Positions 33,020 through 39,079 of a stretch of DNA of 64,000 nucleotides are shown here, in pieces. Origin of the DNA: Selenobaculum gibii (GTDB taxonomy: Bacteria > Bacillota > Negativicutes > ICN-92133); assembly GCF_030273445.1 (NCBI RefSeq), contig NZ_CP120678.1:87501-151500 (forward strand). The letters are read 5' to 3'. Each line of letters begins with the position of its first letter. Position 1 is the first letter of the stretch. The notes below the pieces were generated by a model that searched no databases, was not told where the DNA came from, and saw only the letters and a program-made list of their open reading frames with translations. The translations under genes and the position numbers were made by a program.

Positions 33020-33122
33020 AGTAAGCTTTGATGCTGGTAGAACTTCGGCTTTCAATGATTAAGGATAAGGGCTTGAAAGCTATGTGCTAAAATTTTGTTT
33101 TTTTATGAAGGGATTATTTTCT

Positions 33123-33150
33123 TAGATGAACGAATTATTCATTGGATAAA
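33123..33150 (+). repeat. Copy of a dispersed intergenic motif
   Basis: This segment, TAGATGAACGAATTATTCAT followed by TGGATAAA, matches 54593-54620 in 23 of 28 bases. It lies between the GH13-GH77 gene and its terminator. See also 8995-9010. Confidence 0.5.
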
Positions 33151-33199
33151 CAAATAACCTTAGTAAAGTGAAATGTTTTTACTAAGGTTATTTGTGTTT
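33150..33199 (+). terminator. Terminator of the GH13-GH77 gene
   Basis: 18-bp perfect arms (33150-33167 and 33178-33195) are followed by GTTTT. An additional GCTTTCAA/TTGAAAGC pair lies upstream (about 33051-33083), followed by seven Ts near 33103, and may be the primary stop. Confidence 0.8.
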
Positions 33200-33236
33200 T
33201 AATGTAAGCATATAGTAGCGAAGATGCTATTAAATA

Positions 33237-33320
33237 AAAATAATTTTGTTTGAATACAGTGTACAGTTATTGAAAAAAGTGTACACTTTGTATTATAATA
33301 AAATGAAATATCCTTATAGT
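33237..33320 (+). repeat. 84-bp direct repeat, left copy
   Basis: 82 of 84 bases are identical to 36787-36870, 3550 bp away. It holds two AGTGTACA words, one of them the palindrome GTGTACAC (33279-33286), and a promoter-like TTGAAA (33270) - 18 bp - TATAAT (33294). It also encodes the first residues of the ACP-like reading frame, so it is both possible promoter and possible coding DNA. Confidence 0.92.
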
Positions 33321-33527
33321 ATAAATGGAAAAATCTTAAATGAGGAAAAATTTGGAACGAATTTTTTTTCTAAGGACATCAATTTTTCAGCTATGGATTT
33401 AGTTTATTTGTTCAAATTTTTAGAAACTGATTACCATATAAAATTCCGGGAAGAGGAGATTATGGAGGGGAATTTTGTTACCGTTGATTCAATTGCTAAA
33501 ATGGTATTGACAGAAATAGGTGGTTGA
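33246..33527 (+). CDS. Acyl-carrier-like protein lacking the phosphopantetheine Ser
   Basis: This is a frame of up to 93 residues. The C-terminal two thirds follow the helices of acyl carrier proteins, resembling the ACP-related proteins of clostridial peptide-maturation clusters: EKFGTNFF, AMDLVYLFKFLETDYHIKF, then GNFVTVDSIAKMV. At the place of the prosthetic-group DSL/DSM motif it reads SAMD, so the serine is Ala and 4'-phosphopantetheine cannot attach. Residues 1-25 are encoded by the 84-bp repeat. No good ribosome site precedes TTG 33246, TTG 33270, GTG 33279 or ATG 33303, so the true start is unclear and the gene may be truncated. The stop overlaps the region where the ABC exporter starts (TGA 33525), suggesting coupling. 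Confidence 0.62.
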   Translation: MFEYSVQLLKKVYTLYYNKMKYPYSINGKILNEEKFGTNFFSKDINFSAMDLVYLFKFLETDYHIKFREEEIMEGNFVTVDSIAKMVLTEIGG

Positions 33528-33529
33528 TC

Positions 33530-35164
33530 TTGTTTGAAATAATAAATAAAAAAGCTATATGGGAAAGAGTTCGCTCGGTTCTAAAAACGTATAGGTTAAA
33601 ATTTATTTGTATTTTTCTTTTGATTGTATTATCTAGTGTATTCTCTTTTATTCTTCCGCAGTTAACAAAAAGAATAATGGATGATGGATTTATCGCACGT
33701 AATTTTGACGCAATTCTTGTTTTATCTTTTAGCTTATTTTGTGTCTTAGTTATGAGACAAGCGGTAGAATATATGAAAGAATCTTTTCGAATCGATTTTA
33801 AAAAAAAGTTGATTTATAATTTATATAAAATTGCATTTCTTCATATTTGCAAAAGTGAAATAAAAAGCTTGGATAAAAATAGGGCAGAAATTATAAATAA
33901 ATTACAGATGGATATAAATTCCATATCTACACTTATAGATAATACTACATTGTTTACAATCGGACAAATATTTAACGTCATTGGTGGCGTTATAGGGCTT
34001 TTTATGATTCATACGAAGCTTGCACTTGTTGTTCTTTTTATGATACCTGTTAAATATATTTTGATTGTCTACTTGTCTAAGAAGAGGGAATCATTGACCA
34101 GTGAATATATAAATGCCAATACTAGTTTTTTTAAATGGTTTGAAAATACACTTGCAGGCATACAGGAAATAAAATTATTTGATCTTCATAATTACAAAAT
34201 AGAGGAATTTTCTCCCCTGATGAATAAAAATGTAAATGTGGATAAAAAAATAATGCTTTTATCTGTTTATAATAGTATTTTAGATAATTTTATAATAGAA
34301 ATTTTAACAATTATAATTTATCTAGTGAGCGCGGTCCATTTGTTGAAAGATGAATTAACCGTGGGAAGTATTTTTGCATTTATTACTTATTTGATATATG
34401 TTTCTGCGCCAATCTCAACGATTATCAATTTTCGTTATATGTTAGCGGGAGTTATTCCGTCTCTTTATAGATATGTAGATTTCTTAAATAAGGAAGAAGA
34501 GCCGATGGGTGGAGAAAAAATCCAACGTATGGATGGGTATCCTATTATCGAATTTAAGAATGTTGGGTTTCAATACACAGATAACAAAGTTGTGCTAGAT
34601 AAATTAAGTTTTAAAGTTTATCTGGGTGAAAAGGTAGCTATTATAGGAAAAAATGGAACGGGAAAAAGTACATTAATTCAACTGCTCTTGCGCTTTTATC
34701 TCCCCGCTTGCGGCGCGATAGAGATGTATGGGAAAAATATTAATATTTATGATCTGGAGGAATTAAGGGGAGGTTTTTCAGTTGTTAGCCAAAATGTATA
34801 CCTGTTTGAAGGAAGTATAAAAAGTAACATTATCTTAAATAAAGAATTTGTTCCCGCGCTATTTACAGAAGTACTACAACAGGCAAATTTATTTGATTTA
34901 GTAGAAGAATATACGGTAGACTATAACGTGGGATATGGTGGTGCGAACCTATCGGGGGGACAAAAGCAGAAAATAGCGATTGCTAGAGCCTTATATAGCG
35001 ATCATGAAATATACATATTTGATGAGATAACATCAAATGCAGATATTCAAACGAGAAGTATTTATAAGAAAACAATAATTAAATATCTAAGGGATAAAAC
35101 AGTTTTAATAATTACGCATGATGATGATTTACTTCCCTTTGTAGATAAAATTATTAAGCTGTAA
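33530..35164 (+). CDS. ABC exporter, fused membrane and ATPase domains
   Basis: This 544-residue half-transporter should dimerise. Residues 1-300 hold about six hydrophobic segments of the type I exporter fold. The ATPase domain runs from about 325: Walker A GKNGTGKST, Q-loop VVSQNVYLF, signature LSGGQKQKIAIARAL, Walker B IYIFDEITSNAD and H-loop ITHDDD. No C39 peptidase domain precedes the membrane part, so leader cleavage, if any, needs another enzyme. The start is TTG 33530, six bases behind AGGTGG. It is translationally linked to the ACP-like gene. Relatives accompany peptide-maturation genes, but no precursor peptide or modifying enzyme is visible here, so the cargo is unknown. Confidence 0.85.
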   Translation: MFEIINKKAIWERVRSVLKTYRLKFICIFLLIVLSSVFSFILPQLTKRIMDDGFIARNFDAILVLSFSLFCVLVMRQAVEYMKESFRIDFKKKLIYNLYKIAFLHICKSEIKSLDKNRAEIINKLQMDINSISTLIDNTTLFTIGQIFNVIGGVIGLFMIHTKLALVVLFMIPVKYILIVYLSKKRESLTSEYINANTSFFKWFENTLAGIQEIKLFDLHNYKIEEFSPLMNKNVNVDKKIMLLSVYNSILDNFIIEILTIIIYLVSAVHLLKDELTVGSIFAFITYLIYVSAPISTIINFRYMLAGVIPSLYRYVDFLNKEEEPMGGEKIQRMDGYPIIEFKNVGFQYTDNKVVLDKLSFKVYLGEKVAIIGKNGTGKSTLIQLLLRFYLPACGAIEMYGKNINIYDLEELRGGFSVVSQNVYLFEGSIKSNIILNKEFVPALFTEVLQQANLFDLVEEYTVDYNVGYGGANLSGGQKQKIAIARALYSDHEIYIFDEITSNADIQTRSIYKKTIIKYLRDKTVLIITHDDDLLPFVDKIIKL

Positions 35165-35201
35165 TTATTAGTAGTTTCCTTAAAAATTTTCATTATTTTA
35201 C

Positions 35202-35214
35202 GATAATTATTATA
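35202..35214. promoter_or_regulatory. Fur/PerR-like box, weak
   Basis: GATAATTATTATA resembles the 6-1-6 Fur core GATAAT-N-ATTATC with one mismatch. It lies about 115 bp before the FlxA-like gene. It could be chance in AT-rich DNA. Confidence 0.3.
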
Positions 35215-35326
35215 TAGAGCGTTTGAGTGCATTGTTTTTTGTGAGAACGATTATAAGAAGGTGATATTTAGATTTATATAAGTTGTAGATTTGTATATCG
35301 AAAAATTATCATGGAGGATGATGAAA

Positions 35327-36034
35327 ATGATGATCACAGGTGTAAATGCAGGGAATGCGATGCAAGTAGCCCACCATACGGTAAGAAAAGGAGCTCAGTC
35401 CGTTCAAACTGATTCAAAAGCAGCAATATTTCAACATCAAGGAATTTCTGACTATAAGGACAAGCAACTAAACTCGTTGCAAGTGGGGATCGTTAAGTTA
35501 CAAGATCAGATTGCAAAGTTGCAAGATAATGAAAAATTAGATAAAGAGACAAAAGATGAAATGTTGAAAAATTTGAATAAGCAGCTAGATGATATGATGA
35601 AGTTGCTAAGCGATCCTCAACAGGAAGAGGAGGAAAGCCCATTATCTGTTGAGAATAATAAGAAAAATGATCAAAATGCTTCATCAGGCGGAATAGCTTC
35701 TATGTATGGTATGGGCGCGCAATTAGATCAAGTGAAATCAATGGGAAATATGAAAGTCAAAATGGAAAATCAGGTACAGCTAGAAAAAAATGAATTAGAT
35801 CATGCGATGAATCATCCATCAGAAGCATTGCGATTAAAAGATGAAAGTATAATTGAAAGACGGAGGGGAAAAATTGAAAATATGGAAAATGCCTCTCAGG
35901 CTTTGGAGGGTATGATGGAGCAACAGGTTAATAAAGTTTCACAGCCTGCTGTAGCGAAATCTTCTGAAAATGAAGAATTAAAAGGAAAGGAATCTGCACA
36001 GAAGGATGAAAAAGCAGAAAAAACATTAGAATAA
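35327..36034 (+). CDS. FlxA-like coiled-coil protein, function unknown
   Basis: This protein of about 235 residues is rich in Gln, Lys, Glu and Met, with no signal peptide or membrane span. The centre (KDKQLNSLQVGIVKLQDQIA, KETKDEMLKNLNKQLDDMM) repeats the Q-x-x-I-x-x-L heptads of FlxA-like proteins. The rest is polar and low complexity, with a Lys/Glu tail. The start is ATG 35327 (or the next ATG), nine bases behind GGAGG. Earlier in-frame starts would cover that site. FlxA-like proteins have no firm role. It lies inside the segment bounded by the 84-bp repeats and is followed by a 20-bp stem terminator. Confidence 0.7.
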   Translation: MMITGVNAGNAMQVAHHTVRKGAQSVQTDSKAAIFQHQGISDYKDKQLNSLQVGIVKLQDQIAKLQDNEKLDKETKDEMLKNLNKQLDDMMKLLSDPQQEEEESPLSVENNKKNDQNASSGGIASMYGMGAQLDQVKSMGNMKVKMENQVQLEKNELDHAMNHPSEALRLKDESIIERRRGKIENMENASQALEGMMEQQVNKVSQPAVAKSSENEELKGKESAQKDEKAEKTLE

Positions 36035-36101
36035 AAATATATTTGGAATTTTCAAGGTAAGCGCCGAAGGAGGTTCTTGCGCAAGTTAGTGTATAGCATG
36101 A

Positions 36102-36151
36102 AAAGGGGATGTGACAAAATGATTTCTCATTTTGTCACATCCCCTTTCTTT
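36102..36151. terminator. Strong bidirectional terminator
   Basis: 20-bp perfect arms (36102-36121 and 36128-36147) have loop ATTTCT. It ends beside the stop codon of the convergent prepilin gene. Confidence 0.92.
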
Positions 36152-36656
36152 ATTTGATATCGTAAGTTTCGTCGGGTTTTTGTTTCCCTTCGCCAGTTAA
36201 ATATTGTTGTGCTGTATTTTGCAGGAAGGTAACTTGTTGATCCATGGGAGCTTTTTGGCTATTCCATGCATAGTAATTACGTTTTCCGGAATTATTTAAC
36301 TTTTCGACGTTATATACACGAACTTTTCCATCGGGACATTTAAATCGAAGATTGCCAATCGGAGCTTCTGACCATTGCACAATGTAATTTGGAACTAAGT
36401 CGTTTTTGTCTAAATTGGGAGAAAAACCGTCTGTAGTCATTCCAACGATTGTTTTGGGAATATTTCCATTGTCTAGATAATAAAGAGCTACTGCATTTTC
36501 AATTATTTTCATATCAGCAACAATTTTTGCACCTCGGGCATATTCTACTTGTTCGTTTGTTTTGATGATTACGATTCCACTTAGTATGCTAACAATAGCA
36601 ATGACAATCATAATCTCAATAAGTGTAAAACCGTAGTTGTCTTTAAAATACTTCAT
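36150..36656 (-). CDS. Type IV prepilin-like protein, orphan
   Basis: This 168-residue protein has a class III signal: MKYFKDNYG followed by FTLIEIMIVIAIVSILSGI, with Phe+1 and Glu+5 after the Gly where prepilin peptidase cuts. The mature part has the expected N-terminal helix then a soluble domain with VADMKIIENAVALYYLDNGNIP, typical of GspG/PilA pseudopilins. AAAGGAG precedes the ATG on the minus strand. No pilus assembly genes (pilB, pilC, pilD) are in the window, so it must rely on machinery elsewhere. It lies inside the repeat-bounded segment. Confidence 0.87.
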   Translation of the reverse strand: MKYFKDNYGFTLIEIMIVIAIVSILSGIVIIKTNEQVEYARGAKIVADMKIIENAVALYYLDNGNIPKTIVGMTTDGFSPNLDKNDLVPNYIVQWSEAPIGNLRFKCPDGKVRVYNVEKLNNSGKRNYYAWNSQKAPMDQQVTFLQNTAQQYLTGEGKQKPDETYDIK

Positions 36657-36786
36657 ATAGGAAGGCTCCTTTGTATGTAATTAAAAATGTTAATGAAAAT
36701 AAAACTAAATATTTATTTTATACATTAATAAAATTTTAGCATGTTTTTCTAAATCTCTCTATATAAATAATAAAATGAATTATTTT

Positions 36787-36870
36787 AAAATAATTTTGTA
36801 TGAATACAGTGTACAGTTATTGATAAAAGTGTACACTTTGTATTATAATAAAATGAAATATCCTTATAGT
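36787..36870 (+). repeat. 84-bp direct repeat, right copy, serves as ilvB upstream region
   Basis: This is the partner of 33237-33320 (two mismatches). It holds TTGATA (36820) - 18 bp - TATAAT (36844) and the same GTGTACAC palindrome. Read in the frame of the left copy it encodes an N-terminal fragment ending in YPYSVKGFVICE and a stop, so it looks like a truncated remnant of the ACP-like gene. It ends 18 bp before the ilvB start and probably supplies its promoter. Confidence 0.88.
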
Positions 36871-36887
36871 GTAAAGGGGTTTGTCAT

Positions 36888-38585
36888 ATGCGAATGAATG
36901 GTGCTGAAGCTGTAATCACAAGCTTAAAGAATGAGAATATAGAAGTAGTATTTGGATATCCCGGAGGAGCTGTACTGACGTTATATGATGCGTTGTATAA
37001 AATGCAGTTTCCTCATGTATTGACAAAGCATGAACAGGGGGCAGTTCATGCTGCCGATGGATATGCGAGAGCTACAGGAAAAGTTGGAGTATGTTTTGCT
37101 ACGTCCGGCCCAGGGGGAACAAATTTAATCACGGGGATTGCTACTGCTTATATGGATTCAATTCCGTTAGTGTGTATTACCGGACAGGTAAATGTTTCTT
37201 TAATCGGAAAAGATTCTTTTCAAGAAGCAGATATTTGCGGAATTACTACGCCGATTACAAAACATAATTATCTGATAAAAAAGGTGGAAGATTTACCGCG
37301 AGTGTTAAAGGAAGCTTTTTATATTGCGCGGACTGGAAGGCCGGGCCCAGTAGTCATTGATATTGCAAAAGATGTTTTTGCAAAGGAATTAGATTATATA
37401 TATCCAGTTTCTGTTCAATTAAAAGGTTATACAGGAAATTTTATTGGAACTGAAAATGAAATTGATGAAGTAGTAGAAGTTTTGAAAACAGCGGAGAGAC
37501 CTGTGGTATTCTTAGGCGGTGGAGTGACTTTATCCGATACATCTCCATTATTAAATGAATTTATAGAAAAAACACAAATTCCAGTTGTGTCTAGCCTAAT
37601 GGGGCTTGGCTGTGTACCAGATAGCTATGATGGAAACTTAGGTATGCTTGGCATGCACGGTACATATGCTGCAAATATGGCAACGATGGAATCGGACGTA
37701 TTAATCGGAATTGGTGTTAGGTTTGATGATCGGGTTACTGGCGTTGTAAAAGAATTTGCGCCTGAAGCAAAGATTATACATTTTGATATTGATGCCGCTG
37801 AAATTAATAAAAACGTATTAGTAGATTATCGTGTAGTTGGTGATTTGCGTTGGTCAATACTTTTATTTAAAGAAAAGGTGATGGCGCTTGAAAATGATTG
37901 GCAAGTGCAATTTTCGCTTTGGCGGGATAAAGTTTTAACTTGGAAGAAAGAGCAACCGCTTGATTATGATCGTACGGCAAAATGTATTATGCCCCAGCAA
38001 GTGATTGAGACAGTAAGTCAGATTGCTAATGAAGATACGATTATTGTTACTGATGTTGGTCAACATCAGATGTGGGCAGCACAATTTTACGATTTTTTAA
38101 AACCGAGAAGATTCCTAACTTCTGGAGGCCTTGGAACGATGGGGTATGGACTTCCGGCTGCAATTGGAGCAAAGATAGGCAAGCCGAAAAAAAAGGTAGT
38201 ATTAATTACTGGTGATGGAAGCATTATGATGAACTGCCAAGAGTTTGCAACGGCTGCCGATTATGGAATTGATGTAAAAGTTGTCGTTATGGATAATCAT
38301 GTGCTTGGAATGGTAACGCAATGGCAAAGGATGTTTTATGGCGAACGTTATTCGCAGTCAAAGCTTAATGGGAAAACTGATTTTGTAAAGCTGGCAGAAG
38401 CAATGGGTGTGGCTGGTTATAGGGTAACAGAAGCAAAAGCGTTGAAAACAACTTTGCAAATGGCCTTTGATGCAGAAGGACCAGCCTTAATTGATGTTTT
38501 GCTGCCAGAGGTGGAAGATGTATTACCGATGGTTCCAGCTGGGGGCAGATTGGATCAAATGGTATTGGGGGCGCAGATAAAATGA
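36888..38585 (+). CDS. ilvB: Acetolactate synthase, large catalytic subunit
   Basis: This 565-residue thiamine diphosphate enzyme condenses pyruvate (or pyruvate and 2-oxobutanoate) for valine, leucine and isoleucine. The N-domain has VFGYPGGAVLTLYDAL, the catalytic Glu in TKHEQGAVHAADGYAR, and CFATSGPGGTNLITG. The ThDP/Mg motif is GDGSIMMNCQEFATA...N in the C-domain. It is full length. AAAGGGG precedes ATG 36888. It overlaps ilvN by four bases (ATGA). The upstream region is the right copy of the 84-bp repeat. IlvC, ilvD and leu genes do not follow. Confidence 0.95.
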   Translation: MRMNGAEAVITSLKNENIEVVFGYPGGAVLTLYDALYKMQFPHVLTKHEQGAVHAADGYARATGKVGVCFATSGPGGTNLITGIATAYMDSIPLVCITGQVNVSLIGKDSFQEADICGITTPITKHNYLIKKVEDLPRVLKEAFYIARTGRPGPVVIDIAKDVFAKELDYIYPVSVQLKGYTGNFIGTENEIDEVVEVLKTAERPVVFLGGGVTLSDTSPLLNEFIEKTQIPVVSSLMGLGCVPDSYDGNLGMLGMHGTYAANMATMESDVLIGIGVRFDDRVTGVVKEFAPEAKIIHFDIDAAEINKNVLVDYRVVGDLRWSILLFKEKVMALENDWQVQFSLWRDKVLTWKKEQPLDYDRTAKCIMPQQVIETVSQIANEDTIIVTDVGQHQMWAAQFYDFLKPRRFLTSGGLGTMGYGLPAAIGAKIGKPKKKVVLITGDGSIMMNCQEFATAADYGIDVKVVVMDNHVLGMVTQWQRMFYGERYSQSKLNGKTDFVKLAEAMGVAGYRVTEAKALKTTLQMAFDAEGPALIDVLLPEVEDVLPMVPAGGRLDQMVLGAQIK

Positions 38586-39079
38586 AATATACATTAGCAG
38601 TTTTAGTTGAAGACCGTCCGGGGGTGTTGACGCATGTATCAGGATTAATTAGCCGTAGGGCGTTTAATATAGAAAGTATTGCTGCCGGTTATACGGAAGA
38701 GGAAGGTATAACGAGAATTAACTTAGTTGTGGAAGCTGACAATGAAATAGAATTAGAACAAGTTGTTAATCAGCTAAATAAATTAATTGATGTAATCAAA
38801 ATTGTTAATTTGACTACGGTCGATTCTATTCACCGTGAATTAGTAATGATTAAGGTTAAAGCCAATCCGGTAACTCGTGCCGATATTATTAACATTGTTG
38901 ATATTTTTCGAGCAAAAATTGTTGATGTAAATCGTGAAACAATGGTAATTGAACTTACGGGAGAACAAAGCAAAATTGATGCACTTTGTGAAGTGCTTAG
39001 TGATTATGAAATCATTGAAATTGCTCGTACAGGGAAAATTGCCTTATCTCGTGGTCCTTTGTCGGCAAAAGAAATTTAA
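38582..39079 (+). CDS. ilvN: Acetolactate synthase, small regulatory subunit
   Basis: This 165-residue protein has an N-terminal ACT domain (YTLAVLVEDRPGVLTHVSGLISRRAFNIESI) that binds valine in homologues, and a C-terminal ALS_ss_C domain (LVMIKVKANPVTRADIINIVDIF). It activates the large subunit and confers feedback inhibition. ATG 38582 overlaps the ilvB stop, so translation is coupled. The symbol ilvH is used for the same family. Confidence 0.94.
   Translation: MKYTLAVLVEDRPGVLTHVSGLISRRAFNIESIAAGYTEEEGITRINLVVEADNEIELEQVVNQLNKLIDVIKIVNLTTVDSIHRELVMIKVKANPVTRADIINIVDIFRAKIVDVNRETMVIELTGEQSKIDALCEVLSDYEIIEIARTGKIALSRGPLSAKEI

Follow-up and report, generated by a model that had tools for sequence, protein, structure and literature searches.

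Probable duplication of the ilvB promoter in front of an orphan ACP-related/exporter gene pair in Selenobaculum

Introduction

Selenobaculum gbiensis is a gut bacterium. In the 64,000-nt stretch of its genome analysed here (NZ_CP120678.1, positions 87501 to 151500; referred to as the window), a sequence of 84 bp occurs twice in the same orientation between malQ and ilvB, with several genes enclosed between the copies, and the locus thus poses the question of where this sequence originally belonged and how it came to be present twice. An earlier note, made from the nucleotide letters, had described the two copies as bounding an accessory segment, and took the repeat to be the N-terminal coding sequence of an acyl carrier protein (ACP)-like gene, of which either a copy had been placed before ilvB or the segment had inserted as a cassette and duplicated its target. 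We compared the locus with those of other Negativicutes; the nearest named relatives of strain ICN-92133T are Massilibacillus massiliensis (93.91% 16S) and Propionispira (PMC10491768).

Results

The repeat pair

The repeats (33237-33320 and 36787-36870) are identical at 82 of 84 positions, the only mismatches being 33250 T/A and 33274 A/T, and they match without interruption over at most 46 nt. Their similarity widens to 93 of 100 positions when 33229-33328 is compared with 36779-36878, and the distance between copies is 3.55 kb. The runner-up among direct repeats of more than 22 nt in the region is a 25-nt repeat at 80%. A search of the whole genome (one contig, 2,679,003 bases) found the two copies and no others, with E=2e-35 for the second, which is far beyond chance; the 84-bp direct repeats that the earlier note placed around the segment are therefore real, and unique to this site in the 2.68-Mb genome. 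The principal features of the two ends are as follows.

33150-33195, forward strand: hairpin terminator after malQ (inverted-repeat and terminator scan); the left repeat lies about 40 nt further on.
33237-33320, forward strand: left repeat, interpreted as a derived copy of the ilvB promoter/leader.
33270-33299, forward strand: predicted left-copy promoter, TTGAAA - 18 nt - TATAAT.
33277-33288, forward strand: palindrome AAGTGTACACTT in the spacer of the left promoter, operator-like by sequence.
36787-36870, forward strand: right repeat, interpreted as the ancestral ilvB promoter/leader (conserved before ilvB in genomes G001 and G013, and partly in Propionispira).
36820-36849, forward strand: predicted ilvB promoter, TTGATA - 18 nt - TATAAT.
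36827-36838, forward strand: palindrome AAGTGTACACTT in the ilvB promoter, operator-like by sequence.
36873-36879, forward strand: ilvB ribosome-binding site AAAGGGG, kept in relatives and altered to AAATGGA at the left copy.
36888-38585, forward strand: ilvB, acetolactate synthase large subunit, with ilvN next at 38582-39079.

A palindrome, AATTATTTTAAAATAATT (36779-36798), spans the left end of the right repeat, and its outer arm has no counterpart at the left copy; this is possibly a chance AT-rich match, or possibly a remnant of the copying event.

Origin and direction of the copy

The two best promoter matches of the region, each agreeing with the consensus at 11 of 12 positions, are those of the two repeat copies. 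The sequence AGTGTACACTT is present at the left and right copies and nowhere else in the genome. An imperfect second palindrome, CAGTGTACAGTT, is found in both repeats 20 nt upstream of the perfect one (33257-33268 and 36807-36818), and the two together suggest a two-site operator.

The same element immediately precedes ilvB in two other, distant families of Negativicutes, represented by G001 (85% over 46 bp, E=1.4e-7, with the palindrome intact) and G013 (87% over 31 bp, E=8.6e-4). The match in Propionispira is weaker, consisting of TATAAT-ATAATGAAAATAC and GTGTAAAGG before ilvB, and the palindrome is not kept. Because the element precedes ilvB in all three, we take it to belong to ilvB by descent, and the earlier assignment of the ilvB promoter to the right repeat is confirmed. 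Its exact promoter pattern was found, across 381 genomes of the class, in this genome and G001 alone, and the element therefore seems to have diverged quickly; a search of viral contigs for it gave no match. In the ilvB leader (36820-36890), the pattern TATAAT(A/T)(A/T)(A/T)ATGAAA is kept in Selenobaculum, G001, G013 and Propionispira, with ATGAAA opening a mini-ORF of four codons (MKTL, MKKR, MKIL) in the relatives, while the leader ORF in the window has 14 codons and its end overlaps the ilvB start.

The outgroups allow two of the differences to be polarised (33321 and 33326), and at both of them the right copy has the outgroup base. For this reason, and because the left copy has lost AAAGGGG, the left copy is judged to be the derived one. 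The comparison thus indicates that the repeat represents the promoter/operator and leader of ilvB, with the copy beside ilvB being the original and the copy beside the ACP-related gene being extra, which is the reverse of the direction given in the earlier note.

The ACP-related gene and the joint

The left repeat runs into the first of two adjacent genes:

33303-33527, forward strand: ACP-related ORF, TIGR04069-like, without the attachment Ser and lacking about the first 15 family positions; start uncertain.
33530-35164, forward strand: ABC exporter without a peptidase domain, with a TTG start after AGGTGG.

The ORF scores 48.6 bits against TIGR04069 (peptide maturation system acyl carrier-related protein), for which the curated cut-off is 70 and four relatives score 33-77 bits. 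It matches the family from position 15-16 onward, even when the upstream frame, which is open through the repeat, is added (47.5 bits). Four homologues in other genomes match from position 2-6, and a fifth (G702:C20, from a six-frame search) matches from position 25 only, so that weak N-terminal matching is by itself no proof of truncation. Family homology begins at residue 7 (33321), which is also where the repeats cease to be identical (33320-33328). The joint therefore probably lies inside the ACP gene, which would have lost about 15 family positions and have its 5' end provided by leader DNA of ilvB. Translation from the ATG at 33303 is doubtful, since three bases separate it from the -10 box, nearer than a normal transcript start.

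TIGR04069 is found in 2 of the 381 genomes of the class, including this one, and a search of plasmids for the ACP gene gave no match. The joint coincides with the start of TIGR04069 homology, and the outgroup loci have no ACP gene; both observations indicate that the promoter copy has come to stand before a gene that it did not formerly serve.

The exporter and its relation to CcpM clusters

The exporter, which can start independently at TTG 33530, has full-length identities of 37-38% to the exporters of complete CcpM clusters in G402 and G391 (E values of 1e-123 and 5e-113), as against 25-26% to its nearest full-length paralogues in its own genome. In G402 the cluster has the order exporter, Cys-rich precursor, radical SAM, TIGR04066 and ACP-related gene. 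A search of the Selenobaculum genome for TIGR04066 at E<=0.1 gave no match, and a CcpM maturase (TIGR04068) above cut-off is absent from the genome, the best score being 159.8 bits where 500 are needed. This best match is the SCIFF maturase, and the remaining radical SAM matches fall far short of the CcpM threshold. In 33020-36887 there is no small Cys-rich ORF that could credibly encode the precursor. All five of the other TIGR04069 places seen adjoin maturase or TIGR04066-type genes, as judged by a scan of family names in G109 and by the similarity of translated neighbours in the rest. By these comparisons the ACP-related/exporter pair is an orphan, similar to two members of a five-gene CcpM-type Cys-rich-peptide (RiPP) cluster.

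The SCIFF thioether peptide maturase itself lies elsewhere (G000:C1:2206500-2207810, locus L130; TIGR03974, 629.6 bits). Two paralogous CcpM-like peptide clusters occur in one genome of the phylum (G702, loci L127 and L128), and each is followed by a protein of about 1,050-1,120 aa that is probably a permease, and not of the exporter type found here.

The GC content of the ACP-related and exporter genes is 29-30% (29.6% for the exporter), compared with 36.8% for the window, but their GC3 is ordinary for the region. Composition consequently does not show a foreign origin, and we set it aside as proof of transfer.

The malQ-ilvB interval in relatives

In G013 the order glgA-malQ-ilvB-ilvN-rubrerythrin is contiguous, with one copy of the promoter, no segment, and a malQ-ilvB gap of about 235 bp. 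The single-repeat state envisaged in the earlier note thus exists, and its description of the segment as accessory holds. In two Propionispira species (loci L022 and L084, 3314-5756) this gap is occupied by minus-strand genes for a LysR regulator and a transporter, and a non-exhaustive search of the gap showed no second promoter copy. Among the 61 genomes searched, malQ was found in 47; at the malQ loci L132-L160 no ilvB was present within up to 1.5 kb downstream, and in G004 there was none within the roughly 30 kb read downstream of malQ. It follows from these comparisons that the malQ-ilvB order is common to few lineages and that the gap is variable.

An alignment of the upstream flanks of the left copy with the flanks of the relatives gave nothing significant. 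The upstream flanks of both copies cannot be aligned to the distant G001, G013 and Propionispira, and any exact placement of the left copy in the ancestor is accordingly tentative. No comparison genome is closer than about 94% 16S identity (PMC10491768).

The rest of the segment

Between the exporter and the right repeat are the following features:

35324-36034, forward strand: FlxA-like protein, a weak match (17.9 bits; cut-off 26.3) and not in the exporter unit.
36102-36147, no strand assigned: 21-bp perfect inverted repeat, a probable bidirectional terminator between the convergent flxA-like and pilin genes.
36150-36656, reverse strand: prepilin-like protein (PF07963, N_methyl, 34.5 bits, cut-off 21.2; TIGR01710, 50.4 bits, below cut-off).

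Of the four genes named in the earlier note, the ACP-like ORF, the ABC exporter and the minus-strand prepilin were upheld, and the FlxA-like assignment is weak, its score being below cut-off. A homologue of the FlxA-like protein is encoded elsewhere in G001, and the flxA-like and pilin genes have ordinary composition. The four genes do not look like one unit: the ACP-related gene and the exporter form one predicted transcription unit, and the flxA-like and pilin genes appear to be separate and convergent. The segment was scanned for a transposase or integrase, and none was found among its four genes. Nor are there terminal inverted repeats beside the duplicated target, the inverted repeats in the segment being the operator palindrome, the terminators and AT-rich matches.

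Discussion

The explanation that we favor, and with reasonable confidence, is duplication of the ilvB promoter over the orphan ACP-related/exporter pair, a form of “promoter capture.” A copy of the ilvB promoter/leader of about 90-100 bp would have been placed 3.55 kb upstream and joined within the ACP-related coding sequence, so as to head a unit consisting of the 5'-truncated ACP-related ORF and the ABC exporter. The exporter is accordingly predicted to be transcribed from an ilvB-type promoter that has the same operator-like palindrome, and we infer that it would respond to the signals that act on ilvBN. Recombination across the 46 bp of exact identity is possible at this spacing, and if RecA-dependent it would delete the segment and leave a malQ-promoter-ilvB order like that of G013. 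Three routes to the extra copy can be envisaged: (i) a tandem duplication, in which the promoter from downstream would become joined to the ACP gene and the outer copy would afterwards be lost; (ii) an insertion that duplicated its target; or (iii) templated copying of a short stretch.

The second of these routes amounts to an explanation of its own, in which mobile or incoming DNA entered at the ilvB promoter and 84-100 bp became duplicated, either through staggered repair or because a circle with the same promoter was integrated by a single crossover. The left copy would still be derived from ilvB, and only the route would differ. The placement of the copies is compatible with such an insertion, since the left copy, given its distance from the malQ terminator, is in roughly the position of the promoter in G013 and the right copy is in the normal place before ilvB, so that each may keep its ancestral outer neighbor; the different genes in the Propionispira gap are also in its favor. 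However, the left junction cuts a coding sequence, and the segment comprises three transcription units and not a single cassette. The target duplications of known transposons are, moreover, far shorter than 84-100 bp, and we know of no transposon that would fit one of this length without a transposase, integrase or terminal inverted repeats, so that the transposon form of the idea is weakened in particular. Overall we regard insertion as distinctly the less likely course, although one to be taken seriously.

Duplication of the ilvB promoter also has to be weighed against the proposal, made in the earlier note, that the repeat was originally ACP-like coding sequence, copied before ilvB to act there as a promoter. 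An open frame does span the entire left repeat (33237-33527), with the right repeat reading as a truncated version of it, and MAFFT can align the upstream part with helix I of the homologues. The TIGR04069 profile, however, gives this upstream frame no score, the promoter precedes ilvB in other families where the ACP gene is absent from the locus, and the right copy is ancestral at both informative differences. The outgroup promoters and the profile score lead us to reject an ACP-coding origin, which we consider very improbable. Least credible is that two promoters of one regulon (same regulator, sigma factor) merely look alike with no duplication having occurred, since, despite the operator-like palindrome inside both, identity spans 84-100 bp including the leader and positions beyond the hexamers and palindrome, AGTGTACACTT occurs at no third site, and no diverged sites were found before other genes, leaving two sites genome-wide.

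If the ilvB promoter was indeed duplicated, the locus is a natural and polarised case of promoter capture, with a single-copy site in an outgroup, a conserved source promoter and a visible fusion joint. The event is of a known kind, and it is the target, an orphan exporter, that is unusual. To judge from the exporter, some parts of a peptide-antibiotic cluster may persist when the cluster itself is gone. The malQ-ilvB gap takes different inserts in different lineages, and the repeats draw attention to an operator-like palindrome, so far unstudied, that is partly conserved upstream of ilvB in some Negativicutes. As a speculation, which we think rather unlikely, an orphan RiPP exporter may have been kept after loss of its cluster and put under a branched-chain amino-acid promoter by the short copy, so that it would now be a nutrient-regulated efflux or immunity pump that recombination between the copies could remove at once.

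Comparison with known systems

The exporter and the ACP-related gene resemble those of the complete CcpM (TIGR04068) clusters in G402 and G391. The pair differs from such clusters in being without a maturase, a TIGR04066 protein and a Cys-rich precursor, in having the ACP-related gene before the exporter instead of at the opposite end of the cluster, and in the missing N-terminal positions of the ACP-related protein.

Matus-Garcia et al. (2012) have reportedly described putative mobile promoters and promoter propagation in prokaryotes. The likeness is that a promoter-sized stretch is found at more than one place in a genome before unrelated genes; the difference is that here there are two copies only, separated by 3.5 kb, and nothing suggests that the sequence has spread further.

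Horizontal acquisition of the captured gene is usual in promoter capture, but not obligatory. Capture by deletion or tandem duplication is established experimentally in bacteria, and the cases that have been reviewed include those of Li and Bock 2019 and Blount et al. 2012 (PMC11111574). The Selenobaculum locus differs from the experimental cases in that it belongs to a natural genome, in that a promoter-sized copy alone is left and not a full tandem repeat, and in that the captured gene seems to have lost its 5' end at the joint. What the locus appears to share with them is the essential feature, that a native promoter is copied or moved and comes to drive a gene formerly without it, and, with capture by tandem duplication in particular, that the promoter begins downstream of the gene and ends upstream of it (PMC11111574).
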